From NCBI GenBank assembly GCA_022749295.1, contig CP062007.1:1116001-1180000 (forward strand): a DNA stretch of 64,000 nucleotides, in the 5' to 3' direction. This DNA is from Flavobacteriaceae bacterium GSB9 (lineage in GTDB: Bacteria; Bacteroidota; Bacteroidia; Flavobacteriales; Flavobacteriaceae). Of the stretch, positions 20,083-52,763 are shown in pieces. The position numbers and the translations under genes are program-made. Position 1 is the stretch's first letter, and every line of letters begins with the position of its first letter. Under the pieces are notes generated by a model. It worked only from the letters and a program-made list of their open reading frames with translations, was not told the origin of the DNA and ran no database searches.

Positions 20083-20096
20083 ACGTAGTAATACTT
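20083..20096 (-). promoter_or_regulatory. AAGTA-N4-TACTT palindrome ahead of nrtA (one mismatch)
   Basis: ACGTA-GTAA-TACTT lies 23 bases before the nrtA start. It shares arm sequence and spacing with five other sites in the window. About 250 bases further up a separate palindrome ACTACGTAGT occurs at 20349-20358. The 290-base gap has no other feature. Confidence 0.5.
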
Positions 20097-20388
20097 ATTT
20101 TTTGACAAAGATATACGTAGACGACCTTCTGTTCTATGACATTACCCATGTACACACGTCTTTTTACAACACAAGTAAACCTGCTAAAAAACATAAAAAC
20201 TACACAAAATACTTGTTTACAGCAACTTAAAACACTTATTTATAGTATTTTAAACTACTTAAACAGGCAAAAAACTACTTAGATTTATAACTATTATTGG
20301 AAAATAATGAGGTATTAACAAAAATTCCTTTGTAACTACGCTGGAATTACTACGTAGTTTACTAAGGAACAACACTAGGAGAGTTAGT

Positions 20389-21096
20389 TTAATCTTCCAA
20401 CGTCTTTAGCCACTCGTCTTGAGATAAGGCTATGTACTTCTTTTCATTTCCGTAAGGGTCTTCACCTCCGTCAAAATAATTTTGAATTACACGCATGGGT
20501 ATAGTATCCGCCATTTTATTCGGAACCTTATATTTATGGTTACCGTGGAAATCGTGGCACTGAATGCAGGTAAACCATTCTTCTTTTGCAATTAAGTCTT
20601 TATGGGATATATCCAATGGATCGCCCTCCACCTCCAAATCCTGATGGCAATTCATACAGTAATTAATGGAGGCCACAGAAACGCGTTCTTCCTGATGTTC
20701 GGTATGGCAGGTAATACATGTGGTAGCATCAATATGCTGTACAGCCTCTTTAAAGCGTGGCTCCGAAAAACGATACGTAGGGTGCCGATCGTTTGGACGG
20801 TCGTGGCATTGCAAACAATTGTCTACAGTAACATCTTGGGTCCCAAAATCCACCCCGTGTTCTCGCATTCCGACAGCATGCGAAATATTAGATTGCACCT
20901 GCTGAACCAAATTACCCTTGGCATCGGCATGACAAGCAAAACACGACAAATCTTGGTGGCCAGTGTTCATTGGTCCGATGGAAACATATTGCTCTGTGGC
21001 ATCCCATGTTAATACATAAAACAGGGAAACGCCCAGAAAAACACCTATCAAACCACCCCAAAACTGCCTTTTACGTAACGGACTAACTTTAAACAT
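20389..21096 (-). CDS. Membrane-anchored pentahaem cytochrome c
   Basis: 235 residues. One N-terminal membrane segment (about 13-31) anchors a periplasmic domain with five CxxCH motifs: CFACH (52-56), CLQCH (94-98), CITCH (127-131), CMNCH (147-151) and CIQCH (177-181). The spacing resembles NapC/NrfH-type and cytochrome c3-like folds, but it is not a standard four-haem NapC. It is the last gene of the globin operon, following the flavin reductase by 12 bases. A role in carrying electrons into or out of the periplasm is inferred. Partner and reaction are not known. Confidence 0.85.
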   Translation of the reverse strand: MFKVSPLRKRQFWGGLIGVFLGVSLFYVLTWDATEQYVSIGPMNTGHQDLSCFACHADAKGNLVQQVQSNISHAVGMREHGVDFGTQDVTVDNCLQCHDRPNDRHPTYRFSEPRFKEAVQHIDATTCITCHTEHQEERVSVASINYCMNCHQDLEVEGDPLDISHKDLIAKEEWFTCIQCHDFHGNHKYKVPNKMADTIPMRVIQNYFDGGEDPYGNEKKYIALSQDEWLKTLED

Positions 21097-21108
21097 TAAA
21101 ATTGAATC

Positions 21109-22137
21109 TTAAATTTCTAAAACCACTTTTTCACTTACTGGGTAACTAATACAGGTAAGTACCGCACCTTTATCAACTTCAGTTTCAGGAAGAAAATGAC
21201 CTTCCGTCATTTTCACTTCTCCCTCTACACATGTTGCTTTACAAGTTGAACACATGCCAGACCTGCACGAATAGGGTATAACAACATTTTGTGACATGGC
21301 CTCCTGTAAAATAGACTTGTCACCCCGAACCTTTAACTCGTGCTGTTGCCCGTCTAATTTTATAGTAACATCGCTTATTAATTTACCGCCAGTTAATTTT
21401 ACAACGGCCGGCTTGAATACCTCTACCTTAATATTTTCTCGTGCTACGCCACTGTCACAAAGAATACTTTTAACCGTTTCCATATAGCCAAAAGGCCCAC
21501 AAATCATGTAAACATCATCTTTATAGTCCAAATCATGCTTTAGAAAGATTTTATCTACCAACTCCTTGGTTGCTAAACCGGCGTGATAATTATCTTTATT
21601 CGCTTTACCGGACGCGACAATGTGCTCAACAAAACACCTTTCGGGATATGATTTTTCTAAAGATTTAATCTCATCATGAAAAATAATTGAATCCATATTT
21701 TGATTCGCATATACCAATAACACTTTAGAACCAGGCTCTTCAGTTAAAACAGATTTTAAAATAGAAAATACCGGAGTAATCCCACTACCTCCCGCAAACA
21801 GAACGTATTGCTTCGCGGAATTTTTTTCTGGTGCAACGTAAAAAGACCCAGCTGGCCCCTCTACCTTAAGCTTGGCGCCTTTGTTTAAAACATCGTGCAC
21901 ATAATTTGAAACCAAACCGTTTTCAACACGCTTTATGGTTATTTTTAAATCTTTATCGGTGTAAGGATTGCTACTAAATGAATACGCTCTTTTGTGAACT
22001 ACCTTATCTATAGTAACATGAATGGTTATAAACTGACCCGGTTTGTATTTTATTTTCCTAAATAAATTTCCATTCTTAAAACAGATACTTACTGCATCCT
22101 TGGTTTCCTCTATAATCTCCTTAATCTCTAACTTCAT
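21109..22137 (-). CDS. FAD/NAD(P)H reductase with C-terminal 2Fe-2S domain (PaaE-like)
   Basis: 342 residues. Order: ferredoxin-reductase FAD domain with RAYSFSSNP near 50, NAD(P)-binding domain with LFAGGSGITPVFSIL near 115, and a C-terminal plant-type ferredoxin domain with YSCRSGMCSTCKATC and a distant Cys in LTCISYP giving the C-x4-C-x2-C...C ligand set. Such proteins move electrons from NAD(P)H through flavin to a 2Fe-2S centre for an oxygenase, globin or other acceptor. The globin three genes upstream and the haem-b-like membrane protein directly upstream are the obvious partners. It is cytoplasmic. Confidence 0.9.
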   Translation of the reverse strand: MKLEIKEIIEETKDAVSICFKNGNLFRKIKYKPGQFITIHVTIDKVVHKRAYSFSSNPYTDKDLKITIKRVENGLVSNYVHDVLNKGAKLKVEGPAGSFYVAPEKNSAKQYVLFAGGSGITPVFSILKSVLTEEPGSKVLLVYANQNMDSIIFHDEIKSLEKSYPERCFVEHIVASGKANKDNYHAGLATKELVDKIFLKHDLDYKDDVYMICGPFGYMETVKSILCDSGVARENIKVEVFKPAVVKLTGGKLISDVTIKLDGQQHELKVRGDKSILQEAMSQNVVIPYSCRSGMCSTCKATCVEGEVKMTEGHFLPETEVDKGAVLTCISYPVSEKVVLEI

Positions 22138-22145
22138 TCATTGAA

Positions 22146-22625: not shown

Positions 22626-22712
22626 AAATATTTTAAGATTTCTTTTTTGAAGGTTTGGTTTTAAACCGGAATTGTATTCATGATTCCTTTAAGGTCAAAC
22701 ATCGAAACACCA

Positions 22713-23545: not shown

Positions 23546-23959
23546 TTAATAAGACGCCTTTATCATTACTCCAGACATTACTCCATAAACATCAATCCAG
23601 GCTCCTTTCACTTCTGGCGTAAAATCTTCGCCTAAACCCGCTTCAAGTGTTCCAATCAATGCAGCCCCAACAGTATCGTAATGGGAAGGTTCAACCTTAT
23701 AAGCCACATGGCGTTTTCCCAAATCCTGCAATACGGGTATTAGCGCATCCAAATTACTCAACCCAGCAACTGCAGCCGCCAACATGGTCATGAGTTTATT
23801 ACCCTGGGTTTTCATAGCTTCATCTCCTGTTGGAAATAAAGGTTTCAATTTAGGGTCCAATTCAAACAACTTGGAATAAAATATTTGTGCCGCTGTAGGC
23901 GCAATAGGCTTAACTTTTTCGAACGAATCTTGTACTAAGGCAATTGTTTTCTGCTCCAT
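23546..23959 (-). CDS. Single-domain bacterial globin (Vitreoscilla haemoglobin-like)
   Basis: 137 residues, full globin length. Proximal histidine His84 in GKRHVAYKV, distal Tyr28 (B10) in IFYSKLFELDP, Phe42 (CD1) in PLFPTG and Gln52 (E7) in KTQGNKLM match flavohaemoglobin and Vitreoscilla-type globins rather than truncated globins. It lacks the fused reductase domain of flavohaemoglobins, but a reductase is encoded three genes downstream. NO dioxygenation or O2/NO handling during nitrate metabolism is likely by family. It is the first gene of the operon and carries an exact AAGTA palindrome 38 bases before its start. Confidence 0.92.
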   Translation of the reverse strand: MEQKTIALVQDSFEKVKPIAPTAAQIFYSKLFELDPKLKPLFPTGDEAMKTQGNKLMTMLAAAVAGLSNLDALIPVLQDLGKRHVAYKVEPSHYDTVGAALIGTLEAGLGEDFTPEVKGAWIDVYGVMSGVMIKASY

Positions 23960-23997
23960 AGGTTTTATGTATTAAATTTATGCTTTCTTTTTTAATT

Positions 23998-24011
23998 AAG
24001 TATTAATACTT
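23998..24011 (-). promoter_or_regulatory. AAGTATTAATACTT operator ahead of the globin operon
   Basis: A perfect 14-base palindrome. Its right flank makes TACTTAT, which fits the NarL heptamer consensus TACYYMT. See the findings for the full set. Confidence 0.65.
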
Positions 24012-24160
24012 ATTGTGGAGACAAAATTAAAAGATGCACAACTAACTAAGTATGAAATAAGATAGCCCGAAATAATCTTTTTGCACACACTAAATTCTGC
24101 CAAAACACAGGTTTTACATATAAACAAATGTTTATCAGGGTACTAAAATTTTATTGCAAC

Positions 24161-24227: not shown

Positions 24228-24986
24228 CTAACTATCTAAAAAAAAGTTATGCTCACTAATTTCATTCTTAAGAAGTTGAATGTCGTTAATACCTATTTTT
24301 TTTCCTTTTGTTACAATGAGTTTTTCCTTTTTAAGTGCCGAAAACATTCTGATGACCTGCTCTTCTGTAGTACCGGCATATTCGGCATATTCACGTCGGC
24401 TTAAAGGAACATCCAAAAAACCTTTATTGCTTCCAAACTTTCTATTAATGTACAATAACGTGTCGATAACACGCTCACGTACCGCCATTTGGGAAATTGA
24501 CTTTACTTTTGATTCACTCTTATTCAATTCATTAGCATAAAATAGCATCAAATCGTACGCAAATTTCGGGTTGTTTTGAAGGGCGTTTTGAAGATAAGCC
24601 TTCGAAAAATAGCACAATACGCTATCCTCGAGTGCCACAGCACCTATAGAGTAACATTCTTCGGTACCGAAACCGCGATGCCCAATAATTTCGCCTTCTT
24701 TGGCAAAACGAACAATCTGCTCTCTACCATTTATCCCAGTCCGAAACACCTTAACCTTTCCTTTTAACACAAAGAACAATCCGTTTACGGGAGCACCTTC
24801 CATAATAAACTGTTGTCCTTTTTTGCATCGCAAATTGTTTTTTTCTACGTTTAAACCGCTTTCTTCCAACGAAGCTAAGTTTCTTTTTATAAGACAATTA
24901 TTGTTTTCACAAACATCGCAAGTCACCTCCAGAGAATTTCGCTTTCTGGTGGATGAAGAAACGGTATGTAAACGGCTTGCTTGCAA
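24228..24986 (-). CDS. Crp/Fnr-family regulator with an N-terminal cysteine cluster
   Basis: 252 residues. An N-terminal motif CDVCENNNC (Cys23, 26, 31) with a further Cys54 resembles the cysteine set that binds 4Fe-4S in FNR. It is followed by a cyclic-nucleotide-binding-like beta roll (KKGQQFIMEGAPVNGLFFVLKGKVKVF) and a winged helix with recognition segment LSRREYAEYAGTTEEQVIRMFSALKKE. It may sense O2 or NO. It lies between the globin operon and the nap operon, ends with its own terminator, and has an exact AAGTA palindrome 28 bases before its start. Autoregulation is therefore likely. Confidence 0.9.
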   Translation of the reverse strand: MQASRLHTVSSSTRKRNSLEVTCDVCENNNCLIKRNLASLEESGLNVEKNNLRCKKGQQFIMEGAPVNGLFFVLKGKVKVFRTGINGREQIVRFAKEGEIIGHRGFGTEECYSIGAVALEDSVLCYFSKAYLQNALQNNPKFAYDLMLFYANELNKSESKVKSISQMAVRERVIDTLLYINRKFGSNKGFLDVPLSRREYAEYAGTTEEQVIRMFSALKKEKLIVTKGKKIGINDIQLLKNEISEHNFFLDS

Positions 24987-25014
24987 TTAAAGAAATATTA
25001 CCTGCAGCAAATAT

Positions 25015-25028
25015 AAGTATTAATACTT
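25015..25028 (-). promoter_or_regulatory. AAGTATTAATACTT operator ahead of the Crp/Fnr gene
   Basis: Perfect palindrome identical to the globin site, flanked on the left by AT to give ATAAGTA. A further half-site TACTTAT lies at 25045-25051. The rest of 25029-25187 shows nothing assignable. Confidence 0.6.
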
Positions 25029-25187
25029 AATTCAAAGAAACAAATACTTATTTTTAGTAGCTTCACAAAATAAGCATCATATAATTTGTAGAATCTAAAT
25101 TTTACGGCTTATAAATTCCGTTTATAAAAATGCTCCCGAAAATTCAGAAATACCCAATAGAACTAATTATAACACTTGCGAATAAAT

Positions 25188-25617: not shown

Positions 25618-25764
25618 AATTTATATTATTTAATATATTCCTATCACTTGCAATATTTCAAGGCTCGACCGCAAACAAAAATCCAGTATTTTTACTTTAA
25701 AAATGCTGATATTTATCATTTTTTAAAGATAAAAAAATCACCTTTCCTTAATGTTATGCACACA

Positions 25765-39563: not shown

Positions 39564-41000
39564 CTAAACCTGTTTATTCAATACTTTTTTTTCAAAACTA
39601 CTTTTGGGCGCTTCGCATAGCGAACATTCGTATGTTGCAGGTAAATCTTCAAAAGGCGTGTTAGGTTCTATGCCTTGAGTAACATCGCCATAAGCCTTGT
39701 TATAAACCGTCAAACATTCTGAGCATTGGTGCACTTCTTCTTCAACAATTTCCTTTAGTGGTTTTGAAATTTCCTCTTCAGTACGTTCATTTCCTAATTG
39801 CTCAAAATACAACTGACTTAATTCCATTAACAAACCAGGCAACTCTACCTTATCGACATCCTGAACATGTAAAATATATTTACGGGTATTAGGGTCGAAA
39901 TTTTTGGCATACAAGAGGTTATAAGTATCTCGTATTTTAAAATCGCCAATAGCTTCTGGTTTCTTATTTTTTTCGATAACAATTGATGTAAAATTATAGG
40001 TATCGCTATCAAAACTGGTTATTCCAAAGGTTAGACCGTAAGTACTAATATCATTTTGGTCGAAATTAGTCACTAAGTATTTTTTCAAGTTAAGCGCCTC
40101 TTTGTCGTTCACTGGTAAATGCCAATTCATTTCTAACATAGAATGGCGCACATTGATGCCGAATTTCCCCAAAAACTTTTCCCATTGCAGCTTCGATTTT
40201 AGAGGAATCCCCTTAACAATAAAAGATTTCCAGGGTGTAATGGATATTTTACCAATTTTACTATCTGAACACAAATCGCACATAGCTTTCAAGAACTTTA
40301 AATCATAACGGTTGTTCCGCCAATAAAGCCCAAGCCAATACCTATCGGTTCCAATTCGGTTCATCCCTTCGTAATAAGGAAATGGGTAAAACGGCACATC
40401 TAAAGGTTTATCTACCGTACGGTTGTTGGTGTCAACAGCATCACTAACCAGTTCAAAGAGGGTTTCAATATTTTCTGGTTCTTCTTGCAAAACATCCTCA
40501 ATGGCATGTTCTATTTTGTCCATATCCCAACTGTAAACCAATGCTGGGTACATTACTGTTTTTTTCCACTCAGGTAGCCTAACGTAAAGGTACCAATAGT
40601 CTTCGTGCTCCGAAGCTATAAAATTTACATTTCCTGTAAACAAAGGTACCAAACGCTGCTTGGGATCTGTAACATTAATACGTAATTTAGGTTTGTGCTT
40701 AAACTGCTCGATAACGTACAAATACCTGTCACTGGTAAGCCATGATGTACTGGGTAAAATCTCAGCAGACACATATGACGATGCAATGTTTTCTACACCA
40801 TCTCGTTTGGGTTTTACAAATTTTATTTTGTCGAACTCATCAAACTTACTTTCATCAATTTTTTCCGGGAAAATAATATCTTGGCGAGACCCAAAAGATA
40901 TGGCATCTAAACCAAGTGCCTCTGCCGCTTCACAAATATATTTAAGCTCGCCCGGTGAAAGCACACCGCCGTTTATTCTTAATCTGTATGGTTCTTCCAT
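39564..41000 (-). CDS. Nitrite/sulfite-reductase-like protein with C-terminal rubredoxin
   Basis: 478 residues. The start (RINGGVLSPGELKYICEAAEALGLDAISFGSRQDIIFP) and IVKGIPLKSK segments belong to the ferredoxin-like half of nitrite/sulfite reductases. The four-cysteine set that holds 4Fe-4S and sirohaem (C-x5-C...C-x3-C) is not present; only CDLCSDS is seen. The C-terminus is a rubredoxin: CSECLTVYN and YECSLCEAPKS. Its start overlaps the stop of the NasA fusion by one base (TAATG). A role as electron carrier or assembly partner to the NasA fusion is inferred, not enzymatic nitrite reduction. Confidence 0.8.
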   Translation of the reverse strand: MEEPYRLRINGGVLSPGELKYICEAAEALGLDAISFGSRQDIIFPEKIDESKFDEFDKIKFVKPKRDGVENIASSYVSAEILPSTSWLTSDRYLYVIEQFKHKPKLRINVTDPKQRLVPLFTGNVNFIASEHEDYWYLYVRLPEWKKTVMYPALVYSWDMDKIEHAIEDVLQEEPENIETLFELVSDAVDTNNRTVDKPLDVPFYPFPYYEGMNRIGTDRYWLGLYWRNNRYDLKFLKAMCDLCSDSKIGKISITPWKSFIVKGIPLKSKLQWEKFLGKFGINVRHSMLEMNWHLPVNDKEALNLKKYLVTNFDQNDISTYGLTFGITSFDSDTYNFTSIVIEKNKKPEAIGDFKIRDTYNLLYAKNFDPNTRKYILHVQDVDKVELPGLLMELSQLYFEQLGNERTEEEISKPLKEIVEEEVHQCSECLTVYNKAYGDVTQGIEPNTPFEDLPATYECSLCEAPKSSFEKKVLNKQV

Positions 41001-44000
41001 TATGCTAATACTTTTGAATTATGAAGGATTTCCCTAACCTCTGTTTTACAACTTCCACAGCCTAATCCGGCGCCCGTTTTATTACACAACTCTGTAAAAT
41101 CGGTACAGCCCTTTGCTATGGCTTCTTCAATATTTCCGGCCCCGACTTGGCTACACGAACATACCAATTTACCTATTACGGGTTCGTTATTTGAAGCGCC
41201 CCTCAATAAGGTGTTTCGCTTTTCGGCCATTTCAATTTTACTCTCTATCATGGTTTTAAATTCGGCAAACTCGTTTTTATCGCCCATTAAAACCGCTCCA
41301 ACCAATAAGTCGTCTTTTACGATGCACTTCTTATAATAGCGCTTTTTAATATCGGTAAATATGATTTCTTCATAACTATCGTCATTCTCAGGAACATTTA
41401 TTTCACCAATGCTACATAGATTTAAATCATTGAATTTTAAAATGTTCATCAATACTGAACCATTATACGAGCAACTGATGTCGCCTGCAATAAAGTTAGC
41501 TAAGATATTGGCCTGTTCTTCGGCAGCCGATGTAATGCCGAACAATTGATTATTAAATTCAGCGATTTCACCTATGGCAAAAATATTGGGGTGCGACGAT
41601 TGCAAATGTTGGTTAACCTTAACGCCCCTACTACAAACAATACCATTTTCTCTGGCTATTTCAACATTTGGAATGGTTCCAATAGCATAAACAATAGCAT
41701 TAGCGGTTATAAACTTTCCACTCTTTAAGGTGATATTTAATTCGCCAGTATCCTCATCGTCAAAAACCGTACTCACCTCATTATCGAAGTAAATTTGGAT
41801 ACCGCGTTCTTGAACATCCAAGGCCAATAATTTACTAGAAACCTTGTCTAACTGCCGCTCCATTAAACGCGAACCACGCTGCACAATCGTTATCTTAACG
41901 TTTTTATGTTTCATGGCCGCTGCCAACTCTAGCCCGAGTAAACCACCTCCAACAATAACTACATGTTGCTCTTCGGGCGGTAATCCGGTAGCATCTAAAT
42001 ATGCTTTAAATTCATCAGCATCTCGTTTGTTTCGCATCGTGAAACGCCCCGGTAAATCAATCTGAACGTCTTTTGGGATAAAAGCCCGACTTCCCGTAGC
42101 AAGAATCAGTTTATCGAAACTATGAGATTTGTTGTTACTATCGGTAACGCTTTTGCTCTGCTTATCTATCTCGGTAATGTAAGTTTCTGGATGACAATGG
42201 ATATTAAGCTTGGCCAACTCCATTTGTTTAATCTTCAACAACTGCTCCCAACTTAATTCTTCTGTTACATACTCGGGCAACAATACGCGGTTATAAAACA
42301 AATTGGGTTCTTTTGAAAACACATGTATTTCATCGGTTTCATTATACTCCCTATAGTTCTGAACAAATCTAAAAGCCGCCGCGCCAGCTCCAGCAATGAT
42401 TATTTTTTCTGCCTCTTTTTTATATTTTGAAACCGAAACCCGTGTAAACTTAAAATCTGGTTCTTTTGAAGTTGGGTCTACATGCGTATTGGTTAAATTG
42501 TTAGCCCTATTTAAATCGCTTTGAAGCTGTTTGCCCCAATGCATGGGCAAAAACACCACGCCCTTTTTAATATCGTCGGTGACTTTTGCACGTACTCTAA
42601 CTATACCATTTTCACTTTTTATTTCGGTAATATCGCCGTCTTTTATCTTGTTCAAATACGCATCAACAGGGTTGATTTCGAGAACAGGCGTAGGGTAATG
42701 TGTTTTTAGCCGTGATACTTTACCTGTTTTGGTCATGGTATGCCATTGGTCGCGAATTCTTCCGGTTGTCAATACCAAAGGAAAATCATCATTAGGCTGT
42801 ACTGATGTATTTTTTATATGGCTAGGTAAATTGAACTGTGCTTTTTTTGACGGCGTATAAAACTGTTTATCTTCAAAAAGCCTCGGCGTTCCTTTGTGTC
42901 TATATTCCGGTACTGGCCATTGGAACGTTCCTTCGGTTTTTAACCGTTCATAATTCAAAAAAGAAACATCAATGTTTGTTCCCTTTGTCATCGAGGCATA
43001 CTCATCATATATTTCTTCCGAACTGTTATAGTTGAACCCCCTAAAGCCCATTCTACGAGCGAAATCGCAGAATATTTCAACATCCGGTCTTGCCTCTCCC
43101 GGTGCGTTTATTTCTTTGGGTAAATATGAAATTCTACGTTCCGAATTCGTCATAGTACCTTCTTTTTCCAACCATGCAGCAGCCGGTAAAACCAAGTCGG
43201 CATGAACGACCGTATCCGATTTATGGGAAATATCCTGAACTACGACAAACTTGGCGTTTTTCATGGCCTGTTCAATACGGTGTGAATTTGGCATGCTTAC
43301 CAATGGGTTGGTACAAGCTATCCAAACAGCTTTCATTTTACCGCTTTCAAGTGCATCGAACATTTCGGTTGCTGTCAATCCTGGCTTTGGGTTAATTTTA
43401 TCAACCCCCCAAAACTGAGCAACTTCGCGACGGTGCTCTTCATTCATCAAATCTTTATGTACCGCTAAAAGATTCGCCATCCCTCCTACTTCACGACCGC
43501 CCATGGCATTGGGCTGCCCGGTCAATGAAAACGGCCCCGAACCTGGTTTTCCAATTTTCCCAGTAATCAACGAAAGGTTGAGCAACGACACATTTTTATC
43601 GGTACCCACAACACTCTGGTTAAGTCCCATGGCCCACATACTGATAAACCCTTTTGAAAGCCCTATAATATCCGCCGCCTTTCTAATATCCTTTTCAGGA
43701 ACACCACATAATTTTGAGGCTTGCTTTAAAGAAGTTTTAAAAATCAACTCTTTGTAATTGTCAAAGCCCTCAGTATGTTTATTTATAAAATCTTCATCAA
43801 TCAAACCACGCTTATACAAGCATCTTCCTATGGCATTGTAAAGTATAACATCAGTTCCTGGAAGTAATTGCAAGTGTAAATCTGCAAAGTTCGCCGAATC
43901 TGTTTTACGGGGATCTACCACAATAATTTTCACATCGGGATTTTCCTCTTTGCGCTTTTCTATTCTTCTGAATAAAATAGGGTGACACCATGCGGGGTTT

Positions 44001-44521
44001 GCTCCAGTTATCAAAAAACAATCGGCCAATTCAATATCTTCGTATGAAATAGGCACACTATCTTCCCCAAATGTTTTCTTGTAACCTACAACGGCCGAAC
44101 TCATACATAAGCGCGAGTTGGTATCGATATTATTAGTGCCCAAAAACCCTTTAGTAAGTTTATTAGCTATATAATATTCTTCGGTTAAACTCTGTCCAGA
44201 TACATAAAAACCTACGCTATCAGGACCATGTTTTTTTATAATGGATTTAAAAACACTTGCCGCTCTATCTAAGGCATCGTCCCAGCTCACACGCTCACGC
44301 GGGTGCGAACGACTCCAACGCATTTCGGGATATAAAATCCTATCGGAAACGTCATTGGCCACATAATGCAGGTTCATGCCTTTTGAGCATAGCATGCCCT
44401 TGTTTACAGGGTGGTCTTTGTCGCCTTCAACAAAAATTTTGTCATTATTGTCTTTTTTAACCACAATACCACAACCTACACCACAATAAGAACATGTTGT
44501 TTTTACTTCGTTTTTTACCAT
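41000..44521 (-). CDS. NasA nitrate reductase fused to a flavoprotein and BFD domain
   Basis: 1173 residues. Residues 1-680: molybdopterin oxidoreductase with Cys10, Cys13, Cys17 and Cys45 for 4Fe-4S and Mo-ligand Cys139 in SRLCMSSAVV, and a C-terminal MGD domain. About 690-1090: FAD/NAD-dependent reductase (IIAGAGAAAFRFVQNY, ILATGSRAF, VIVGGGLLGLELAAAM), NasB-like. From 1115: BFD-type 2Fe-2S domain (CSCSQVGAGNIEEA, CNKTGAGLGCGSCKTEV). The whole is a self-contained NAD(P)H-dependent assimilatory nitrate reductase. It is cytoplasmic (no signal). An AAGTA palindrome lies 91 bases before the start. Confidence 0.92.
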   Translation of the reverse strand: MVKNEVKTTCSYCGVGCGIVVKKDNNDKIFVEGDKDHPVNKGMLCSKGMNLHYVANDVSDRILYPEMRWSRSHPRERVSWDDALDRAASVFKSIIKKHGPDSVGFYVSGQSLTEEYYIANKLTKGFLGTNNIDTNSRLCMSSAVVGYKKTFGEDSVPISYEDIELADCFLITGANPAWCHPILFRRIEKRKEENPDVKIIVVDPRKTDSANFADLHLQLLPGTDVILYNAIGRCLYKRGLIDEDFINKHTEGFDNYKELIFKTSLKQASKLCGVPEKDIRKAADIIGLSKGFISMWAMGLNQSVVGTDKNVSLLNLSLITGKIGKPGSGPFSLTGQPNAMGGREVGGMANLLAVHKDLMNEEHRREVAQFWGVDKINPKPGLTATEMFDALESGKMKAVWIACTNPLVSMPNSHRIEQAMKNAKFVVVQDISHKSDTVVHADLVLPAAAWLEKEGTMTNSERRISYLPKEINAPGEARPDVEIFCDFARRMGFRGFNYNSSEEIYDEYASMTKGTNIDVSFLNYERLKTEGTFQWPVPEYRHKGTPRLFEDKQFYTPSKKAQFNLPSHIKNTSVQPNDDFPLVLTTGRIRDQWHTMTKTGKVSRLKTHYPTPVLEINPVDAYLNKIKDGDITEIKSENGIVRVRAKVTDDIKKGVVFLPMHWGKQLQSDLNRANNLTNTHVDPTSKEPDFKFTRVSVSKYKKEAEKIIIAGAGAAAFRFVQNYREYNETDEIHVFSKEPNLFYNRVLLPEYVTEELSWEQLLKIKQMELAKLNIHCHPETYITEIDKQSKSVTDSNNKSHSFDKLILATGSRAFIPKDVQIDLPGRFTMRNKRDADEFKAYLDATGLPPEEQHVVIVGGGLLGLELAAAMKHKNVKITIVQRGSRLMERQLDKVSSKLLALDVQERGIQIYFDNEVSTVFDDEDTGELNITLKSGKFITANAIVYAIGTIPNVEIARENGIVCSRGVKVNQHLQSSHPNIFAIGEIAEFNNQLFGITSAAEEQANILANFIAGDISCSYNGSVLMNILKFNDLNLCSIGEINVPENDDSYEEIIFTDIKKRYYKKCIVKDDLLVGAVLMGDKNEFAEFKTMIESKIEMAEKRNTLLRGASNNEPVIGKLVCSCSQVGAGNIEEAIAKGCTDFTELCNKTGAGLGCGSCKTEVREILHNSKVLA

Positions 44522-44612
44522 TTAGACAAACATTTTAAATAAAAAGATTCTTTAACTAACATTAAAAAATCAATAATTGTATTAACGTCCCCATTTTCTT
44601 TATTGTAAAATT

Positions 44613-44626
44613 AAGTATTTATACTT
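44613..44626 (-). promoter_or_regulatory. AAGTATTTATACTT site ahead of the NasA fusion
   Basis: AAGTA-TTTA-TACTT, extended to TTAAGTA...TACTTAA. The other bases of the 250-base gap, which ends at the transporter gene, show nothing else. Confidence 0.6.
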
Positions 44627-44772
44627 AATTTTTATACATATAAATAAGCAACCATTGAAAAATACAGTATTAATAATTACACATGAATGATTTTATCGAT
44701 TTACCAAAAAAAAGCGAAATATTCATTTCGTTTTTTATCACAAAATTCATTTTTTACGACATAAACCACTTT

Positions 44773-46263
44773 TTAATCTATACTTTTCTCAAATTTATTG
44801 ACCAATTGAGGTGTTGCTTTATTAACCATTCTTTGTACAACCCTATGCATCCAGATTAAACAAATTGCCGATAGTAAAAACATTAAAATCCAACAACTCG
44901 ACCAAAGGCCCGTACCCTCTAAAAGGTAACCGAATATTATTGGACAAAAGAAGCCTCCCAATCCACCTAGAACACCAACCATACCACCTACAACACCAAC
45001 TTCTTCCGGAAAGTAATCCGGAATATGTTTATAAACTGCGGCTTTACCTATCCCCCAAACAGAGCCTATAATAATGGCTATAATTGCAAATATCCAAAGG
45101 TTTGCTTGAAAATATATATGCGTTTTTCCCTCTGCAATCAATTCTTTCTTTTTAACCATATCACCTTTTTTCACTACGGCTTGTTGCCAAGATTCTTTAA
45201 CAGGAAAAATATTGAAATCGTTTTCAAGAGATGCCAACTTATCGGTTTTACCTTTAAGCGGATACTTTTTTCCTTCCAATTCAATATAAGTTGATGTTAC
45301 ATCGGTAACCACTCCAGAAGATTTAGCCATTACACCTTTGCCAGCAGCATAAATATCCATCCTTGGAATAATTAGAGTAGCACTAAAAACTAATGAAGCT
45401 CCAAGCACCCAATACATCACTTTTCGAGCTCCGAATTTATCGGACAACCACCCACCAAAAGCTCTAATAACACCGGACGGTAAACTAAAACATGATGCCA
45501 AAAGTCCTGCGGTAGCTAAATCCAATGCATATACATTAGTGTAATATGGCACCAACCAACCAGCAAAAGCAACAAAACACCCAAAAACCAAAAAGTAATA
45601 TAATCCAAATCTCCAAACACGCACACTCTTTAGCGGCTGCATCATACCAGCTAAACTCTTGGTACTTGATGCTGGTTTTTTATTTTTTGTTGAAAAGAAA
45701 AACACTATAGCCATGAGCACTAAAAAAGCAGCATAAATCTTAGGCATATCCCTCCATCCTTCAAGGTTCGTCTTTCCATCGGTTAGAACATCTAAAAGTT
45801 TAGGTCCAATTAAAGTCGTAATGGCCGCACCGGCATTCCCGGCACCAAAAATGCCTAAAGCTAAGCCCTGCTTTTCTTTAGGAAACCAAATTGATGAAAA
45901 AGCTATACCTACTGCAAAACTAGCCCCCGCAATACCAAATCCTAAACTACAGAGCGCGAACGACCAAAATCCATTAGCAAAAGACAACAAGTACATAGGG
46001 ACAGCACAGAGTAGTAAAAGTCCCGTGAAAACAGGTTTACCACCCAATTTATCGGTTAAAACACCTGCTGGTAATCTAAAAATTGCACCGGTTAACACGG
46101 GGATACCTATTAGCCAACCTATTTCTACAGCACTCCAGTTAAATACTTGATTGTCTACTAAAAAAGTTACCAATATTCCGTTCAATAGCCATGCAGCAAA
46201 ACAAAACGTAAAAGATAATGTATTAATAAACAACGTTTTGTTAGCTCCTTTTGTCACTTTCAT
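44773..46263 (-). CDS. NarK-type nitrate/nitrite MFS transporter with a soluble insert
   Basis: 496 residues. NarK/NasA-class features: FSSIWFPKEKQGLALGIFGAGNAGAAITTL and a second nitrate-signature helix FPEEVGVVGGMVGVLGGLGGFFCPIIFG. Between the eighth and ninth helices an insert of about 90 residues (STYIELEGKKYPLKGK, then VVKKGDMVKKKELIAEG) is hydrophilic and looks like a barrel-sandwich or lipoyl-like beta domain. The insert is absent from E. coli NarK. Transport direction cannot be read. It follows the NasA promoter and has its own palindrome upstream. Confidence 0.9.
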   Translation of the reverse strand: MKVTKGANKTLFINTLSFTFCFAAWLLNGILVTFLVDNQVFNWSAVEIGWLIGIPVLTGAIFRLPAGVLTDKLGGKPVFTGLLLLCAVPMYLLSFANGFWSFALCSLGFGIAGASFAVGIAFSSIWFPKEKQGLALGIFGAGNAGAAITTLIGPKLLDVLTDGKTNLEGWRDMPKIYAAFLVLMAIVFFFSTKNKKPASSTKSLAGMMQPLKSVRVWRFGLYYFLVFGCFVAFAGWLVPYYTNVYALDLATAGLLASCFSLPSGVIRAFGGWLSDKFGARKVMYWVLGASLVFSATLIIPRMDIYAAGKGVMAKSSGVVTDVTSTYIELEGKKYPLKGKTDKLASLENDFNIFPVKESWQQAVVKKGDMVKKKELIAEGKTHIYFQANLWIFAIIAIIIGSVWGIGKAAVYKHIPDYFPEEVGVVGGMVGVLGGLGGFFCPIIFGYLLEGTGLWSSCWILMFLLSAICLIWMHRVVQRMVNKATPQLVNKFEKSID

Positions 46264-46331
46264 TACTATATAATTTTTAGGTTTATAAATTTTAAAAAGA
46301 CAGAAACCCTATGTTTTCCTAGAGCAAAACT

Positions 46332-46345
46332 AAGTATTTATACTT
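46332..46345 (-). promoter_or_regulatory. AAGTATTTATACTT site ahead of the NarK gene
   Basis: AAGTA-TTTA-TACTT, 68 bases before the transporter start. A weaker second version, AAGTATCTACGTATT, is at 46366-46380. The rest of the 294-base gap shows nothing. Confidence 0.55.
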
Positions 46346-46557
46346 AATTTTAAACCTAAAAAATTAAGTATCTACGTATTTATATCAGATTGATAATTTC
46401 GAGTGATAATTTTTGAATATTTAATAAAAAATGAAAGAATTACATCCAAAAATAAATGAAAAAAAGACAAATACTACATAGCAAAGCACAGCGTAACTTA
46501 AAACAAAAGCTTTTTAAATAATATCACACCTGTTTACTTAAGCAAGTTGGCATAAAA

Positions 46558-47232
46558 CTAGACCAAATCGTACTCTTTTGCTTTATTAGTGAGTTCCATT
46601 AAATTTTTCACCTCAAGCTTTTTCATGAGATTAAAGCGATGCACTTCGGCGGTTCTCTTGCTGATTTGTAGCTCTTCGGCTATATCTTTATTATTTTTCA
46701 ATTGAAGTACTAAATCAAGAATTTGCTTTTCTCGCCTCGTTAACTTAAAAGGCATTTCTTTAGGCTCCTTTTTGGAGATTTGGGTGGTCGCGGTATTTGT
46801 ATTTCCATTTACAAAGTTATTCATGATTATGGCAGACACGTCTCCTGTAAAATATTTACCACCCGAAGCCACATTGTTCAGAGCTTTTAAAAATTCTTCC
46901 TTGCTAGCCCCCTTTAGCAAATAACCATCAGCCCCAGCTTCAATGGCCTTAACAACATATTCTTCAGAATCGTGCATGGACAATACTAACGTTTTTACAT
47001 CCTTATGACGTTTATTAATTTCACCAACAACTTCGATTCCATTCATCTCTGGCATTCTAATATCGACAATCAACACGTTTGGCTTGTTCTTTTCCACTAT
47101 CTCTAAAGCCTCTTTTCCATTGGAAGCCTCATCGATTACAACAATACCTGATTGATCCTCTAGAAGCGCCCGAATACCATCCCTAACCAAAACGTGGTCA
47201 TCAGCAAGAATTACATTAATAACGTCTTTCAT
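46558..47232 (-). CDS. NarL/FixJ-family response regulator
   Basis: 224 residues. Receiver domain with phospho-acceptor Asp57 in VLIVDIRMPEMNG and a LuxR-type HTH at about 160-224 (LTRREKQILDLVLQLKNNKDIAEELQISKRTAEVHRF). It pairs with the histidine kinase 97 bases upstream. Position between NarK and nirBD suggests nitrate or nitrite control. It is a candidate to bind the AAGTA/TACTT sites, since their TACTTAT half matches the NarL heptamer. Confidence 0.92.
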   Translation of the reverse strand: MKDVINVILADDHVLVRDGIRALLEDQSGIVVIDEASNGKEALEIVEKNKPNVLIVDIRMPEMNGIEVVGEINKRHKDVKTLVLSMHDSEEYVVKAIEAGADGYLLKGASKEEFLKALNNVASGGKYFTGDVSAIIMNNFVNGNTNTATTQISKKEPKEMPFKLTRREKQILDLVLQLKNNKDIAEELQISKRTAEVHRFNLMKKLEVKNLMELTNKAKEYDLV

Positions 47233-47301: not shown

Positions 47302-47329
47302 TAAGTATTTTCTAAAAAAGTAAGTATTT
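47302..47329 (-). promoter_or_regulatory. Two direct TAAGTATTT half-sites between kinase and regulator genes
   Basis: TAAGTATTT at 47302-47310 and TAAGTATTT at 47321-47329, the same half-site as the palindromes elsewhere but in direct order. Confidence 0.35.
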
Positions 47330-49144
47330 TTAATTTATTGGGATATTAAGAGTTACACGCGTCCCACTACCTACCTCAGAATTAAGGAACAAGCGCCCTC
47401 CAATATAGTTTATACGTTCGCGCATAAAAGTCATTCCCATGCCGCCATCGCCATTCTTTATTTTTTTCACTTTTGAAGGCTCAAAGCCCTTCCCATTATC
47501 GTCAATTACAATGCTCAATATGTTTTGGCTATGGGACAATGCCACGATAATATGCGTTGAATCGGCATATTTTATGGCGTTATTTATGGCCTCCTGAACA
47601 ATCCTATAAATATTTATTTCGGCTAACGAATCTAACCTTTGATTGAAATCCGTTTTATTAAAAACCACAATTTCTTTTCCAGTAAGCCTGGTCAACTCCT
47701 GGGTCAATTTGGCTATTGCAGGTACAATACCGTGGTCTGTTAACTCTGGCGGTGTTAAATTAAAAGTAGCCGTACGTACGCCTTTTATTATATTTGATGT
47801 AAGCGCTTTTAAGTGCTCTATTTTAGCGGTTGCCTTTTCTACATCTTTGGCATCGATACTTTCCAAATTATATTTTAACCCCGTTAGCATTTGCCCAATA
47901 CCGTCATGGACATCTTTGGCAATTCTATTTTGTTCTTTTTCTTGGTTTTCAATTATTTTACTGGAAATTATTTTTTGTTGGCTCATTTTCTCCTCAAAGC
48001 TCTGTTTTGTAAGCCGTTCTATTTCCAATTGCGCTTTTTTACGCTCTGTAATTTCCGATGCTATTATTAGCAACTGTGACTTATCTTCTGTTGGGCTAAA
48101 TGGAATTATAGCCATTTCTAGCCATACATCTTCGCCATTTTTGGTTGTTGCCTTAACCTCACCTTGCCAACCTGTTTTTTTATTTTTGGAAATGATGTCT
48201 TCAACGGCTAGTTGTTCGTTTTCAACCGTTGAGAGCACATTCCAAATCAGTGTATTTTTACCAAATTTTGAAAACTTAAACAATCTTGAAAACTTGTTAC
48301 CCATGTGTACCAATTGGCCATTGGGCAAAATTCTAGCGAACAACAAGGTTTCGTCCATCGCATGACTTAAAGCCCGCAATTCTTTAATGGATTTCTCTTT
48401 TGAAATACTTAGTTCATCAGCATCCTTGGCCATTTTTTTGGCACGCTGTTCTGCAGATAACAACTCAGCCAATGTATTTTTTACACTTTTAGCCGTAGGC
48501 CAGAAAATAAACATAAATTCACCCAACAGGATGAGTAACGTAAAGCCCATTAGCCAAATCTCGAGGTCTCGGAGCCAATCCACTTTTTTATCAGCTTCAA
48601 AATCATATTGATTTACAATATCATCCATCATGGCAAGAAAATCGTCTTCGTTAGCCTTTACCTTTTCTATGTCAGATTGAAAAGCACTAACAGGCAAAGG
48701 TGGTACATTCTCGATTTTTTCTATAATGGACTTTGTTGCATTAGAAATGGTATCGAAAACCGGGTTTAAAGCCTTAAACTTTTGTGTAACCACTTTACTA
48801 TTTTCTTTTGGCAGCCCCAAACTGTCGTTGCCATGTTGAAGTGCATGATGCGAAACTTCCCAAATATGTAGGGTTTCCTTAATCTTATCTTTTAGCAGCA
48901 ACCTTTTTTCTGAGACAGGTTCTGCTGAAAGAGAAACCACATCTTTTGTTAGTTTTTGGCTTAGCATACGCTGCCTACCGGCCACATTAATTACCGAAGA
49001 ATCGCTCTGTTGGTCGTTTAGGTGATTTCGTATAAGAATTTGACTAGCAATAACCGAAACAGCAATGGCACTTAAAGCTATTACGTATAAACGGCTTAAT
49101 TTATTAAACGTACGTTGGTCTAATGAATTACCGCTTTTTGCCAT
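47330..49144 (-). CDS. Sensor histidine kinase with PilJ/NarX-like sensor and PAS domain
   Basis: 604 residues. A first membrane helix (about 17-35), a periplasmic PilJ-type domain with the P-box-like segment VINVAGRQRMLSQKL that in NarX/NarQ-like sensors contacts nitrate, a second helix near 193-210, a PAS domain (about 260-370), a HisKA_3 dimerisation helix with KDVHDGIGQMLTGL (phospho-His), and a HATPase domain with VQEAINNAIKYAD and DDNGKGF. The combination predicts a nitrate/nitrite sensor partner of the NarL-type regulator. DUF4202 and nirBD lie just upstream. Confidence 0.9.
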   Translation of the reverse strand: MAKSGNSLDQRTFNKLSRLYVIALSAIAVSVIASQILIRNHLNDQQSDSSVINVAGRQRMLSQKLTKDVVSLSAEPVSEKRLLLKDKIKETLHIWEVSHHALQHGNDSLGLPKENSKVVTQKFKALNPVFDTISNATKSIIEKIENVPPLPVSAFQSDIEKVKANEDDFLAMMDDIVNQYDFEADKKVDWLRDLEIWLMGFTLLILLGEFMFIFWPTAKSVKNTLAELLSAEQRAKKMAKDADELSISKEKSIKELRALSHAMDETLLFARILPNGQLVHMGNKFSRLFKFSKFGKNTLIWNVLSTVENEQLAVEDIISKNKKTGWQGEVKATTKNGEDVWLEMAIIPFSPTEDKSQLLIIASEITERKKAQLEIERLTKQSFEEKMSQQKIISSKIIENQEKEQNRIAKDVHDGIGQMLTGLKYNLESIDAKDVEKATAKIEHLKALTSNIIKGVRTATFNLTPPELTDHGIVPAIAKLTQELTRLTGKEIVVFNKTDFNQRLDSLAEINIYRIVQEAINNAIKYADSTHIIVALSHSQNILSIVIDDNGKGFEPSKVKKIKNGDGGMGMTFMRERINYIGGRLFLNSEVGSGTRVTLNIPIN

Positions 49145-49156
49145 TTGTTTTACTAT

Positions 49157-49741
49157 TTAGGATATCGCCTGTTTTACGAGTGCCAAACCTTTTTCCGAAA
49201 AGGGCAATTTTAGCGCTTCCGCATGCCCCTTATCAGACATTTTAACCCAGGTTTTTTTTAAAATATCAATTACTTTTTCGTCTTCGTGTTTTTGGGCAAA
49301 CTCCTCAAAATAATAATCTAAAAAAACCAAACAAATGGTATCTTCCAACGCTTGGGACTCTTCATTTTTCTTTATGAGTTTTTTGTTTATTAAAAACGAA
49401 ACACGCTCTATAAACTGATCGTCATAACCAACTTGATTCAATATCTCGGCAGTTAATTCAGCATGCATTTTTTTTAAGGTTTCTCGCCATTTTAAATACC
49501 CCACGCGGTCCATTGGATATTCATCCCTGGCAATTTTCCAACGACAAATATGCTGTGCGCGTGCTGCAATTTGCAATGCTTTTGAAGCGTTAGGCTCAAA
49601 CCGCAAAAGCTTCCGGGTCATACGCTGCGAATACAACAGTTCTTTTGGATATTTTATACCAAAAACATCGTAAGTATTGGTATCTTGACGGTTTTTTTCA
49701 TCTATTAAAGCTATGGCGGTTTCAAATCTGGTTGGTTTCAT
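49157..49741 (-). CDS. DUF4202 protein
   Basis: 194 residues of the DUF4202 family (RARAQHICRWKIARDEYPMDRVGYLKWRETLKKMHA segment with several conserved His and Asp that resemble an HD-like metal site, and EDTICLVFLDYYFEEFA). The family is found next to nirBD in several phyla, but its reaction is not known. It begins 23 bases after nirD and precedes the kinase gene. Confidence 0.85.
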   Translation of the reverse strand: MKPTRFETAIALIDEKNRQDTNTYDVFGIKYPKELLYSQRMTRKLLRFEPNASKALQIAARAQHICRWKIARDEYPMDRVGYLKWRETLKKMHAELTAEILNQVGYDDQFIERVSFLINKKLIKKNEESQALEDTICLVFLDYYFEEFAQKHEDEKVIDILKKTWVKMSDKGHAEALKLPFSEKGLALVKQAIS

Positions 49742-49764
49742 AATGCTGTATTTTGTACTAATCG

Positions 49765-50142: not shown

Positions 50143-50204
50143 AATTACAATGTGTTGTTTTTTTAAACTTTTTTGTGTGCTACCTTAGGGTCAGGCTTTA
50201 TTTT

Positions 50205-52724
50205 TTAATTCCAAGCTTTAGGCATTTTTTGCTCTCGCAATGGTACAAACTCCAAGTTGTCATCAGTATCATCTGAGTTCACAAAATGCTTAAAGCGCTT
50301 CATCATTTCAGGGTTTTCAATGGCTTGTTTCCATTCACACTCATATTTCCCAATAAGGCCTTGCATTTCTTTTTCAAGATCTTCAGCAATACCTAATGAG
50401 TCCTCAATAACCACTTCTTTTAAGTACTCAATACCGCCTTCCAATTTATCTAACCAAGGGGCCGTTCTTACCAAAGGTCCGGCGGTTTTAATATAATACA
50501 TCAAGAACCTATCTAAGTATTTTATGGCAGTTTCGTCATCCAATTGCTCTGCAAAAAGCACGGCATGTTTTGGCGTGGCACCACCATTTCCGCATACATA
50601 TAAATTCCATCCACCCTCAACGGCTATCAATCCAAAATCTTTACCTCTGGCCTCAGCACATTCCCTGATACACCCTGAAACTCCACCTTTTAATTTATGT
50701 GGCGAGCGCAATCCTTTGTACCTGTTTTCAATCTCTATGGCAAATGATACACTTTCGTGCATACCATAGCGACACCATGTAGAGCCTACACAACTTTTAA
50801 CCGTACGCAACGATTTTCCGTAGGCATGGCCACTTTCAAAACCGGCATCAATCAATTCTTTCCAAATTACTGGTAATTGGTGTATTTGTGCTCCGAATAA
50901 GTCAATACGTTGTCCGCCAGTAATTTTTGTATATAAATCGTATTTTTTGGCAACTTCACCAAGAACAATTAAATGCTCTGGAGTAATTTCGCCACCCGCA
51001 ACCCTTGGCACTATTGAATACGTACCGTTGCGTTGGATATTGGCCAAAAATCGATCATTGGTATCTTGTATAACCGGTTGTTTATTTGGCGTCTCCATAG
51101 TAATGGTTGCAAATATAGAGGCCAATGCCGGTTTACAAATCTCGCAACCATGCCCTTCACCAAATAAATCAAGTGCCTCTTCGTAATCGGCCACGCCATT
51201 GACTTTTATCAAATCGTAAAGTTCTTGACGGCTAAAGCTAAAATGTTCACAAAGTTCTTCTTTAACTTCCTGCCCAAGTGATTTAAGCGTTTCGTTAACC
51301 AAATCGACCACCATAGGTTTACAACCGCCACAACCCGTAGTTGCTTTGGTTTTTTGGATAACATCCCCCAAGTTTTTGCTATCGCCATCGGTTATCGAGC
51401 AGCAAATATCGCCCTTGGTAACACTCTCGCAAGAACAAACCTGCGCAACATCTGGAATATCCAACACACTTCCAAACGAAGAATCGCCCTCGCCGCGTGT
51501 ACCAATCACTAATTCCTCAGCATCTTCTGGTATGGGTAATCCATTTAGATAAATTTGATGGAACATATTATAATCACTGGCATCACCTATTAGTATTCCT
51601 CCAAGCAATTTTTTTCCATCATGACTAACATTTATACGCTTGTAAAGGTTTTTGGTTTTATTCTCAAAAATGATTGAGTACCCTTTCTCAACAGGCATAA
51701 ACGGCACACCATAACTTGCTACATCAACACCAATCAACTTCAGTTTTGTTGACATATCGATATCATCATCCATCACCACATCCGTATTACCTATAATTTG
51801 GTTGACTGCAACATCGGCCATATCGTAACCCGGTGCCACTAAACCGTAAATCATCTGGTTGAACAAGGCTACCTCACCAATTGCAAAAATTTCCGGGTCT
51901 GAAGTTTGCATCTTATTGTTTACCACAATACCACCTCGCGTACCCATTTCAAGACTACAGGTTTTTGCCAACTCATCTCTTGGCCTAATACCAGCAGAAA
52001 CAACAAGCATTTCAACATCTATCTTGTCATACTCGCCAAACTCCATTCCAGTAATAGCCCCATCTCCCAAAATTTTATTGGTAGCTTTTGAAAGGTGAAC
52101 GTTTATCCCAATAGACTCTATCTTTTCCTGAAGTACTTTACTACCTCGTGTATCTAATTGCCTAGGCATCAATTTAGGAGCAAACTCAACAACATGAGGC
52201 TCAAAGCCCATATCCATAACTGCTTTCGCTGCTTCTAAACCTAATAAACCACCACCTAAAACAGCCGCTTTAATTTTTTCGTCGCGTCCCTGTTGAATTT
52301 TATCGGCATAGGCTAACATGTCTTCCAAATCCTCGATTGTTCTGTAAACAAAAACACCTTTTTTCTCAATGCCATCAATGTTTGGAACAAAAGGCGAAGA
52401 CCCTGTAGCCAAGACCAAATAATCATATTTATAATTGATATCTTTTGAAGATGTAACTTTTTTGGAAGACCTATGGATATCGGTAATCCGCTCGTTGGTT
52501 ATAAGCTCAATACCGTGCTCCTCATACCACTCTCGTGGCGCCATTTCCAGCGCTTTGGCATCTTTATTCCCAAAGTATTCACTTAAATGAACCCTATCAT
52601 AAGCTGGCCTTGGCTCCTCACCAAAAACAGTAATTTTAAAATTCTTACTTTCTGGTTGCTCTACTAATTTTTCGCAGAATTTGTAGCCAACCATACCGTT
52701 TCCAACTACAATAATTTTTTGCAT
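50205..52724 (-). CDS. nirB: NADH-dependent nitrite reductase large subunit NirB
   Basis: 839 residues from ATG at 52724; an upstream ATG at 52745 exists but lies almost on the palindrome, and the MQKIIVVGNGMVG start fits the family. Order: FAD/NAD reductase, one CSCESVTKGDICCSI and a GCGGCKPMV BFD-type 2Fe-2S domain, a second partial C...C segment (EGHGCEICKPA), then the sirohaem domain with the CVGSTWC and CIRECAEARG cysteines that ligate 4Fe-4S/sirohaem. It reduces nitrite to ammonium in the cytoplasm with NADH. First gene of nirBD-DUF4202-kinase. Confidence 0.95.
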   Translation of the reverse strand: MQKIIVVGNGMVGYKFCEKLVEQPESKNFKITVFGEEPRPAYDRVHLSEYFGNKDAKALEMAPREWYEEHGIELITNERITDIHRSSKKVTSSKDINYKYDYLVLATGSSPFVPNIDGIEKKGVFVYRTIEDLEDMLAYADKIQQGRDEKIKAAVLGGGLLGLEAAKAVMDMGFEPHVVEFAPKLMPRQLDTRGSKVLQEKIESIGINVHLSKATNKILGDGAITGMEFGEYDKIDVEMLVVSAGIRPRDELAKTCSLEMGTRGGIVVNNKMQTSDPEIFAIGEVALFNQMIYGLVAPGYDMADVAVNQIIGNTDVVMDDDIDMSTKLKLIGVDVASYGVPFMPVEKGYSIIFENKTKNLYKRINVSHDGKKLLGGILIGDASDYNMFHQIYLNGLPIPEDAEELVIGTRGEGDSSFGSVLDIPDVAQVCSCESVTKGDICCSITDGDSKNLGDVIQKTKATTGCGGCKPMVVDLVNETLKSLGQEVKEELCEHFSFSRQELYDLIKVNGVADYEEALDLFGEGHGCEICKPALASIFATITMETPNKQPVIQDTNDRFLANIQRNGTYSIVPRVAGGEITPEHLIVLGEVAKKYDLYTKITGGQRIDLFGAQIHQLPVIWKELIDAGFESGHAYGKSLRTVKSCVGSTWCRYGMHESVSFAIEIENRYKGLRSPHKLKGGVSGCIRECAEARGKDFGLIAVEGGWNLYVCGNGGATPKHAVLFAEQLDDETAIKYLDRFLMYYIKTAGPLVRTAPWLDKLEGGIEYLKEVVIEDSLGIAEDLEKEMQGLIGKYECEWKQAIENPEMMKRFKHFVNSDDTDDNLEFVPLREQKMPKAWN

Positions 52725-52749
52725 ATCTAAGTATTTATTAAGCAAATCT

Positions 52750-52763
52750 AAGTATTTATACTT
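52750..52763 (-). promoter_or_regulatory. AAGTATTTATACTT site ahead of nirB
   Basis: AAGTA-TTTA-TACTT, 25 bases before the chosen nirB start. A half-site AAGTATTTA follows at 52730-52738, within the alternative N-terminal codons. The close spacing is a further reason to choose the 52724 start. Confidence 0.6.

Follow-up and report, generated by a model that had tools for sequence, protein, structure and literature searches.

The use of nitrate by marine flavobacteria is relevant to the nitrogen cycle of the ocean, and a 64,000-nucleotide stretch of the genome of Flavobacteriaceae bacterium GSB9 (assembly GCA_022749295.1, contig CP062007.1, positions 1,116,001 to 1,180,000; hereafter the window) raises the question of how such use might be controlled. 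Near-identical palindromes stand there before six nitrate-related promoters. The original prediction, made from the letters alone, assigned these six copies of AAGTA-N4-TACTT to one regulon and named two possible binders, a Crp/Fnr-type protein and a NarL-type response regulator, both encoded in the window. Which protein reads the palindrome, and what would its binding do to transcription?

Here we find that the palindrome's occurrence across genomes tracks a pair consisting of a sensor kinase and a response regulator, and not the Crp/Fnr protein. We estimate a probability of about 0.75 that the response regulator encoded at 46558-47232, of the NarL/FixJ type, has as its operator the conserved unit, a 16-base-pair (bp) palindrome with the working consensus TAMGTA-N4-TACKTA, and that its partner is a nitrate-type kinase with PilJ and PAS domains. 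Taken by itself, the proposal that this regulator is the palindrome binder is very probably right, as judged from comparisons of sequence. In the window the palindromes, the paired half-sites, their target genes, both regulator genes and the kinase gene lie on the reverse strand.

The palindrome in the genome

The core AAGTA-N4-TACTT is exact at 23998, 25015, 44613, 46332 and 52750 and one mismatch off at 20083. Because the copies before nirB in relatives often take the form TAAGTATAAATACTTA or TACGTATAAATACTTA, the consensus was widened to TAMGTA-N4-TACKTA, whose half-site allows A or C, and under this 16-bp form the site before nrtA also becomes exact. All six palindromes that had been described are thus exact at 16 bp: before nrtA (20082-20097, TAAGTATTACTACGTA), the globin gene (23997-24012), the Crp/Fnr gene (25014-25029), the NasA fusion gene (44612-44627), narK (46331-46346) and nirB (52749-52764). 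Their distances to the start codons, 22 to 90 bp, bear out the spacing first reported. The half-sites placed between the kinase and regulator genes are real as well: two direct copies of TACTTA (47326-47321 and 47307-47302, together 47302-47326), without a full palindrome, precede the regulator gene. The stated absence of sites ahead of nap and moeA held for napA, with no site in the preceding 160 bp, and in part for moeA, where the preceding 200 bp contain a lone half-site (32304). A near-match at 25684 before an NrfH-like gene (CAGTATTTTTACTT) was dropped, having no half-site of the refined motif.

Across the genome, a single contig of 3.63 Mb, the 16-bp form has eight exact matches, six of them the noted promoters within 33 kb, and the pattern read backwards as a control has two. 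The binomial probability of six of eight matches falling in 32.7 kb is 1.5e-11, an optimistic figure because the limits of that stretch were set by the sites themselves. The remaining two may be chance matches, one 12 bp upstream of a ferritin-like gene (L182:1501-1516, G000:C1:2570186, TAAGTAACTTTACGTA) and one 46 bp before an integrase-like gene (L020); both gene identities are our own reading. The exact core occurs six times in the whole genome, and five copies are the sites already described. The sixth (C1:1112124, L001) looks like a chance match: it coincides with the end of a gene, overlapping the stop codon, and a gene on the opposite strand faces it. Looser patterns say little: with up to two mismatches allowed, the window has 66 copies of the core where 53 are expected, barely an excess (4 of 100 shuffles reach that count), and a search of the whole genome at three mismatches was uninformative (430 against 470 for the control).

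Conservation in relatives

To follow the palindrome in relatives we used the taxonomic family group of the genome, read as Flavobacteriaceae from the nearest relatives of the kinase gene (Algibacter, Tamlana, Flaviramulus and other Flavobacteriaceae). The survey covered 59 nirB loci of this family, 1.157 Mb of fetched sequence. Rows L081 (without target genes) and L064 and L076 (contig ends) were set aside, and gaps arising from one misplaced start each in L064, L056 and L076 were disregarded. These loci contain 164 copies of TAMGTA-N4-TACKTA, compared with a mean of 1.5 for 179 palindromes with permuted half-sites, of which the two most frequent, at 53 copies each, incorporate a piece of the motif itself. 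One copy lies inside an open reading frame (ORF) and one near no ORF; the remainder lie at most 250 bp before an ORF start.

Counted by locus, the palindrome precedes 58 of 59 nirB genes, 30 of 46 regulator genes, 16 of 17 nrtA genes (exact) and 16 of 34 NasA genes. It precedes none of the 57 kinase, 57 DUF4202, 59 NirD, 25 NasA2 and 6 Rieske-type genes of the same loci, although kinase, DUF4202 and NirD make an easy negative control because they lie inside the presumed nirB operon. The gene order NirB, NirD, DUF4202, kinase is unbroken in 55 of 59 loci, as expected of an operon. The DUF4202 protein, encoded between NirD and the kinase (49157-49741 in the window), probably belongs to nitrate assimilation or its control.

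Counted by site, the main targets are nirB (59), the regulator (30), a major facilitator superfamily (MFS) transporter that we read as a nitrate transporter (28), nrtA (22), NasA (15) and a tetrapyrrole methylase (15) that probably serves the synthesis of siroheme, the cofactor of NirB. Rarer ones are single ORFs (5), Crp/Fnr (5), NarK (2), porin (2), globin (1) and one other; a site between divergent genes may count for both. This conservation supports the view that assimilation, the globin operon and the regulator gene form one regulon, and the enrichment that the original prediction asked for is present both in this genome and in the nirB loci of its relatives.

The reach of the regulon differs between species. 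At L199:4788-4824 of G121, a genome without a Crp/Fnr orthologue, two tandem palindromes lie between genes that we read as porin-like and moeA-like, whose counterparts in the window have no palindrome. Exact TAAGTANNNNTACTTA occurs 3.2 times per genome (control 1.4) in the 60 family genomes with nirB and 0.5 times (control 0.9) in the other 189, an undercount because many relatives use TACGTA. When seven relatives were searched whole with the degenerate pattern, its count did not always exceed the control (5 against 5 in G121, 5 against 10 in G143); single matches away from nitrate loci therefore mean little.

Distribution of the candidate readers

Of 249 family genomes, nirB was detected in 60 and the kinase in those same 60, the kinase match in G180 and G228 being a short relative elsewhere in the genome and not at the locus. 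The regulator lies inside the fetched stretch at 45 of 59 loci and elsewhere in the genome in all 14 others, with 48-85% identity, while the other regulators of those 14 genomes reach at most 42%. Among ORFs of at least 90 amino acids, only NirB, NirD, DUF4202, the kinase and the regulator are present in at least 45 of the 59 stretches.

A Crp/Fnr orthologue, defined by an expectation value (E) of at most 1e-80, is present in 44 of the 60 nirB genomes. In the other 16 the best matches are around 1e-40, and four of these genomes (G143, G177, G211 and G218) have no match at 1e-20. Every one of the 16 keeps an exact palindrome before nirB, and G177 has another before the globin gene. The density of sites is independent of this protein, with a mean of 2.7 per nirB locus where it is present and 3.0 where it is absent.

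At class level, 15 of 295 genomes have nirB, and 11 of these lie outside the family. The pair occurs with an exact motif in G512 and with a one-mismatch copy in G452, which stands 65 bp from the start and has a regulator matching at 53-55% adjoining. The other nine (G357, G340, G361, G474, G403, G432, G259, G487 and G535) have nirB and no exact motif, with kinase matches of at most 36% and regulator matches of at most 42%. Two of them, G487 and G535, carry at nirB a kinase with a match to the PilJ region and a regulator (35-40%) with a different recognition helix; G487 also has a two-mismatch copy.

Regulator and kinase

The regulator combines a receiver domain (Response_reg, 1.3e-31) with a GerE/LuxR-type helix-turn-helix domain (GerE, 4.3e-17), as NarL-family regulators do, and its best full-length solved relative is NarL (1a04, 1.3e-33). 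Its score against the NarL equivalog model NCBIfam PRK10651, 146.2 bits, falls below the cut-off of 250 bits. The recognition helix is the one that contacts DNA in NarL. Its residues E196, H198, R199 and F200 are invariant across all 49 aligned regulators from motif-bearing genomes and partly changed in the two aligned regulators from nirB loci without the motif; in the alignment NarL has K, H, V and K at these four places. The alignment comprises the regulators inside the fetched stretches, and the regulator of G229 is cut off in it by the end of the stretch and was found whole in the genome search.

The kinase (47330-49144), presumed partner of the regulator, matches PilJ (1.8e-14), PAS_9 (2.8e-6), HisKA_3 (1.3e-11) and HATPase_c (1e-15) and gives no HAMP or GAF match. 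We take the PilJ domain to correspond, in Pfam, to the NarX sensor, and the kinase presumably senses nitrate. These are the domains expected of the nitrate-sensing histidine kinases of Bacteroidetes. Three relatives (G002, G237 and G082; L136, L133 and L106) have kinases of 457-458 amino acids whose match begins at about residue 200, so that the PilJ sensor region is apparently missing; the palindrome is kept in all three.

Position on the predicted core promoter

The placement of the sites on the promoter is an addition to what had been noted. The -7 box of Flavobacterium psychrophilum, TAnnTTTG, is described as spanning -12 to -5 (PMC9723704), and we predicted boxes by matches to this consensus. 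At three promoters of the window the last TA of the palindrome is the first TA of the box, which puts the palindrome at -26 to -11: nirB (box TAGATTTG, 52750-52743), narK (TAGTTTTG, 46332-46325) and the Crp/Fnr gene (TATATTTG, 25015-25008). At nrtA (box TATCTTTG, 20113-20106) and the globin gene (TAATTTTG, 24029-24022) the palindrome lies downstream of the box, at about +5 to +21. Before the regulator gene it is the half-site 47307-47302 that shares a TA with the box TATTTTTG (47303-47296), and the NasA fusion gene has no consensus box, only a near-match, TAATTTTA, downstream. Additional half-sites accompany nrtA (TACGTA, 20119-20114), narK (46378-46373 and 46370-46365) and nirB (52801-52796 and 52733-52728).

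The same arrangement is conserved in the relatives. TAnnTTTG begins at palindrome position 14 in 44 of 59 nirB and 16 of 28 MFS sites, with a further class at an offset of about 24-26 (six nirB and six MFS sites), and the string TACKTAnnTTTG occurs in 49 of 59 nirB regions. The offset is 22-26 in 23 of 30 regulator sites and -15 or -16 in 10 of 22 nrtA sites, where the palindrome is just downstream of the box. The globin layout of the window, box and then palindrome, is repeated in L055, L066, L170 and L175. Extra half-sites recur at nirB (at -33 in 23 of 59, at +30 to +32 in 27 of 59), the MFS gene (-23/-24, 18 of 28) and nrtA (-21, 7 of 22). Most are spaced close to whole helical turns, which binding by an array of dimers would call for, but those of the MFS gene are not.

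A second conserved element, the inverted repeat AATTTGnGAAATT followed by AATAAT, lies about 63 bp before the palindrome upstream of nirB in relatives. A search by regular expression recovers it at 19 of the relatives' 59 nirB sites, the window has a near-match at about 52805-52830, and it is possibly the site of a second factor. An 8-mer search for other upstream elements returned mostly uninterpretable words.

Genes behind the promoters

The predicted targets in the window are an NMT1-like substrate-binding protein of family NMT1_2 (18665-20059), for which the name nrtA is the reading of the original prediction and ours; a globin domain protein (23546-23959), the first gene of a presumed target operon; a NasA-type nitrate reductase fused to a NirB-like flavoprotein half (41000-44521); a transporter resembling the NarK family (44773-46263; TIGR00886, 1.5e-54, below the cut-off); and NirB (50205-52724), followed by NirD, DUF4202 and the kinase. 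The Crp/Fnr-type regulator (24228-24986) is a further target and an unlikely reader of the motif. It has, in our reading, Fnr-like cysteines in the spacing C-x2-C-x4-C and a later cysteine in DSVLCYF, and may be an iron-sulfur sensor of oxygen or NO with a separate site of its own.

Discussion

Between the two binders first proposed, the NarL-type regulator tracks the motif and the Crp/Fnr protein does not. The case for the latter, acting alone or together with the NarL-type regulator, is that its gene adjoins the targets, has a palindrome in front of it here and lies within 12 of 59 fetched nirB stretches. FNR sites, moreover, have a 5-4-5 geometry, TTGAT-N4-ATCAA, which equals the 14-bp geometry of the palindrome core. 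The geometry is the same but the sequence is different: FNR-like sites with at most one mismatch number 11 in the window against 5.9 expected (3 of 100 shuffles reach this), and none is at the six sites. In G357, G361 and G474, furthermore, nirB has a Crp/Fnr relative (35-40%) in its vicinity but no motif. As sole reader the protein is rejected, since the 16 genomes without an orthologue keep the motif, and a share in binding is very improbable. Somewhat less remote, though still unlikely, is a third regulator encoded at a distance from the locus. It would accommodate G180 and G228, which have no PilJ kinase at the locus, and the second element upstream of nirB does suggest further factors there. 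Against it, no other protein of at least 90 amino acids recurs consistently across the fetched stretches, and motif and regulator presence agree in nearly all genomes examined, the exceptions being G228, G180 and G403.

Those exceptions count against the kinase and regulator pair as well. G180 has an exact copy before nirB without the kinase at the locus, G228 lacks an exact copy there, and in G403, which is without the pair, a copy with one mismatch stands 220 bp away from nirB. We take the mismatched copies of G403 and G487 as chance, which is a judgement, since the copy in G452 also has one mismatch. The class-level comparison, too, concerns 11 mutually related genomes, with four of the nine negatives from one genus. 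Finally, residues 1-147 of the kinase match solved PilJ weakly (E 0.004) and match no NarX or NarQ structure, so that nitrate as the signal rests on Pfam, the gene context and the parts of a review that describe this kinase class (PMC8199190).

In the scheme that we favour, dimers of the NarL-type regulator would occupy half-sites spaced by roughly 10, 21 and 33 bp, and the bound protein would block RNA polymerase at the core promoter. The genes of nitrate assimilation, the globin operon, the gene of the regulator itself and, in this genome, that of the Crp/Fnr protein would stay shut until the kinase reported nitrate. Sites over the -7 box or just past the start are repressor positions, and we therefore lean, by a little over even odds, towards repression as the main sign. 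The full scheme, a nitrate two-component system working by de-repression in which a NarL-type regulator on half-site arrays over and around the -7 box locks assimilation, the globin operon and its own gene until the kinase lifts the block, is offered tentatively.

The NarL family is best known for upstream activation, and nitrate stimulates phosphorylation of NarX. With polarity like that of NarX, a phosphorylated repressor would act the wrong way unless the kinase were inhibited by nitrate. A dual, NarL-like switch is possible, an account we hold more doubtful still, in which the regulator is a nitrate-triggered activator that replaces a missing -33 element and represses only where its site is downstream of the start, as at nrtA and globin. 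It would fit NarX polarity. It would also fit the motif-bearing promoters themselves: a TTG stands 23 bp before the box (at -23) in none of 47 nirB, 21 MFS, 23 regulator and 14 nrtA boxes, compared with 12% of 143 other boxes, which are not proven promoters; this absence suits activator-dependent promoters. The two offset classes at nirB (14 and 24-25), about 11 bp or one helical turn apart, are what contact with polymerase would require, and the extra half-sites at -23/-24 (MFS) and -33 (nirB) lie upstream. On the other side, palindrome and -7 box overlap, so that an activator would have to share DNA with sigma, and the nrtA and globin sites lie downstream of the box.

Among known systems the nearest kind is nitrate signalling of the NarXL type with a different DNA word. 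The NarX/NarQ-NarL/NarP systems of Proteobacteria likewise join a sensor kinase with PilJ-type and HisKA_3 domains to a NarL-family regulator with nitrate genes as targets, and the 16-bp inverted repeat here can be read in their 7-2-7 layout. The NarL operator consensus is TACYYMT-N2-AKRRGTA, whereas the half-site here is TAAGTAT, and three of the four recognition-helix residues compared differ from NarL. The suggested fit of TACTTAT to the NarL heptamer did not hold up: TACCCAT-N2-ATGGGTA, the one form of the operator that was checked, has a single window match at up to three mismatches against 2.5 expected. The reversed order of the 7-2-7 repeat proved a matter of framing, in that TAAGTAT-N2-ATACTTA is itself a 7-2-7 inverted repeat, of a different heptamer; orientation is therefore no argument against a NarL-type protein. 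Other differences from NarX-NarL are that the sites here lie on the core promoter, that the targets are assimilation and not respiration genes, and that the kinase has PAS and no HAMP match. By sequence the DNA-binding domain is nearest, among solved ones, to EsrB (7vim, E 1.8e-13), ahead of NarL (1je8, E 3.1e-5), which places it beside EsrB/SsrB/FixJ-type domains by sequence and not by binding sites; those systems serve different biology.

The closest description of the kinase is that of the Bacteroidetes nitrate-sensing histidine kinases (PMC8199190), which combine a sensor domain with PAS, lack HAMP and GAF-like domains and have nitrate genes nearby, an architecture and gene context that the window kinase fits; in the class description itself we found no operator or regulon. 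In searches of open-licence literature in PubMed Central, judged by titles and the openings of abstracts, we recognised no operator word, regulon or promoter position for flavobacterial nitrate-sensing kinases. NreBC of staphylococci is a two-component regulator that also binds a palindrome at nitrate genes, but its palindrome is GC-rich and its sensor different (PMC8139620). With the proposed operator at seven predicted promoters of the window, as a full palindrome at six and as paired half-sites at the seventh, the regulon becomes readable from sequence and gives a direct test of what the Bacteroidetes kinase class does. As far as these sources reach, the kinase class and two-component regulators acting on nitrate-gene palindromes were already known, and this operator word, its regulon and its promoter position are new.

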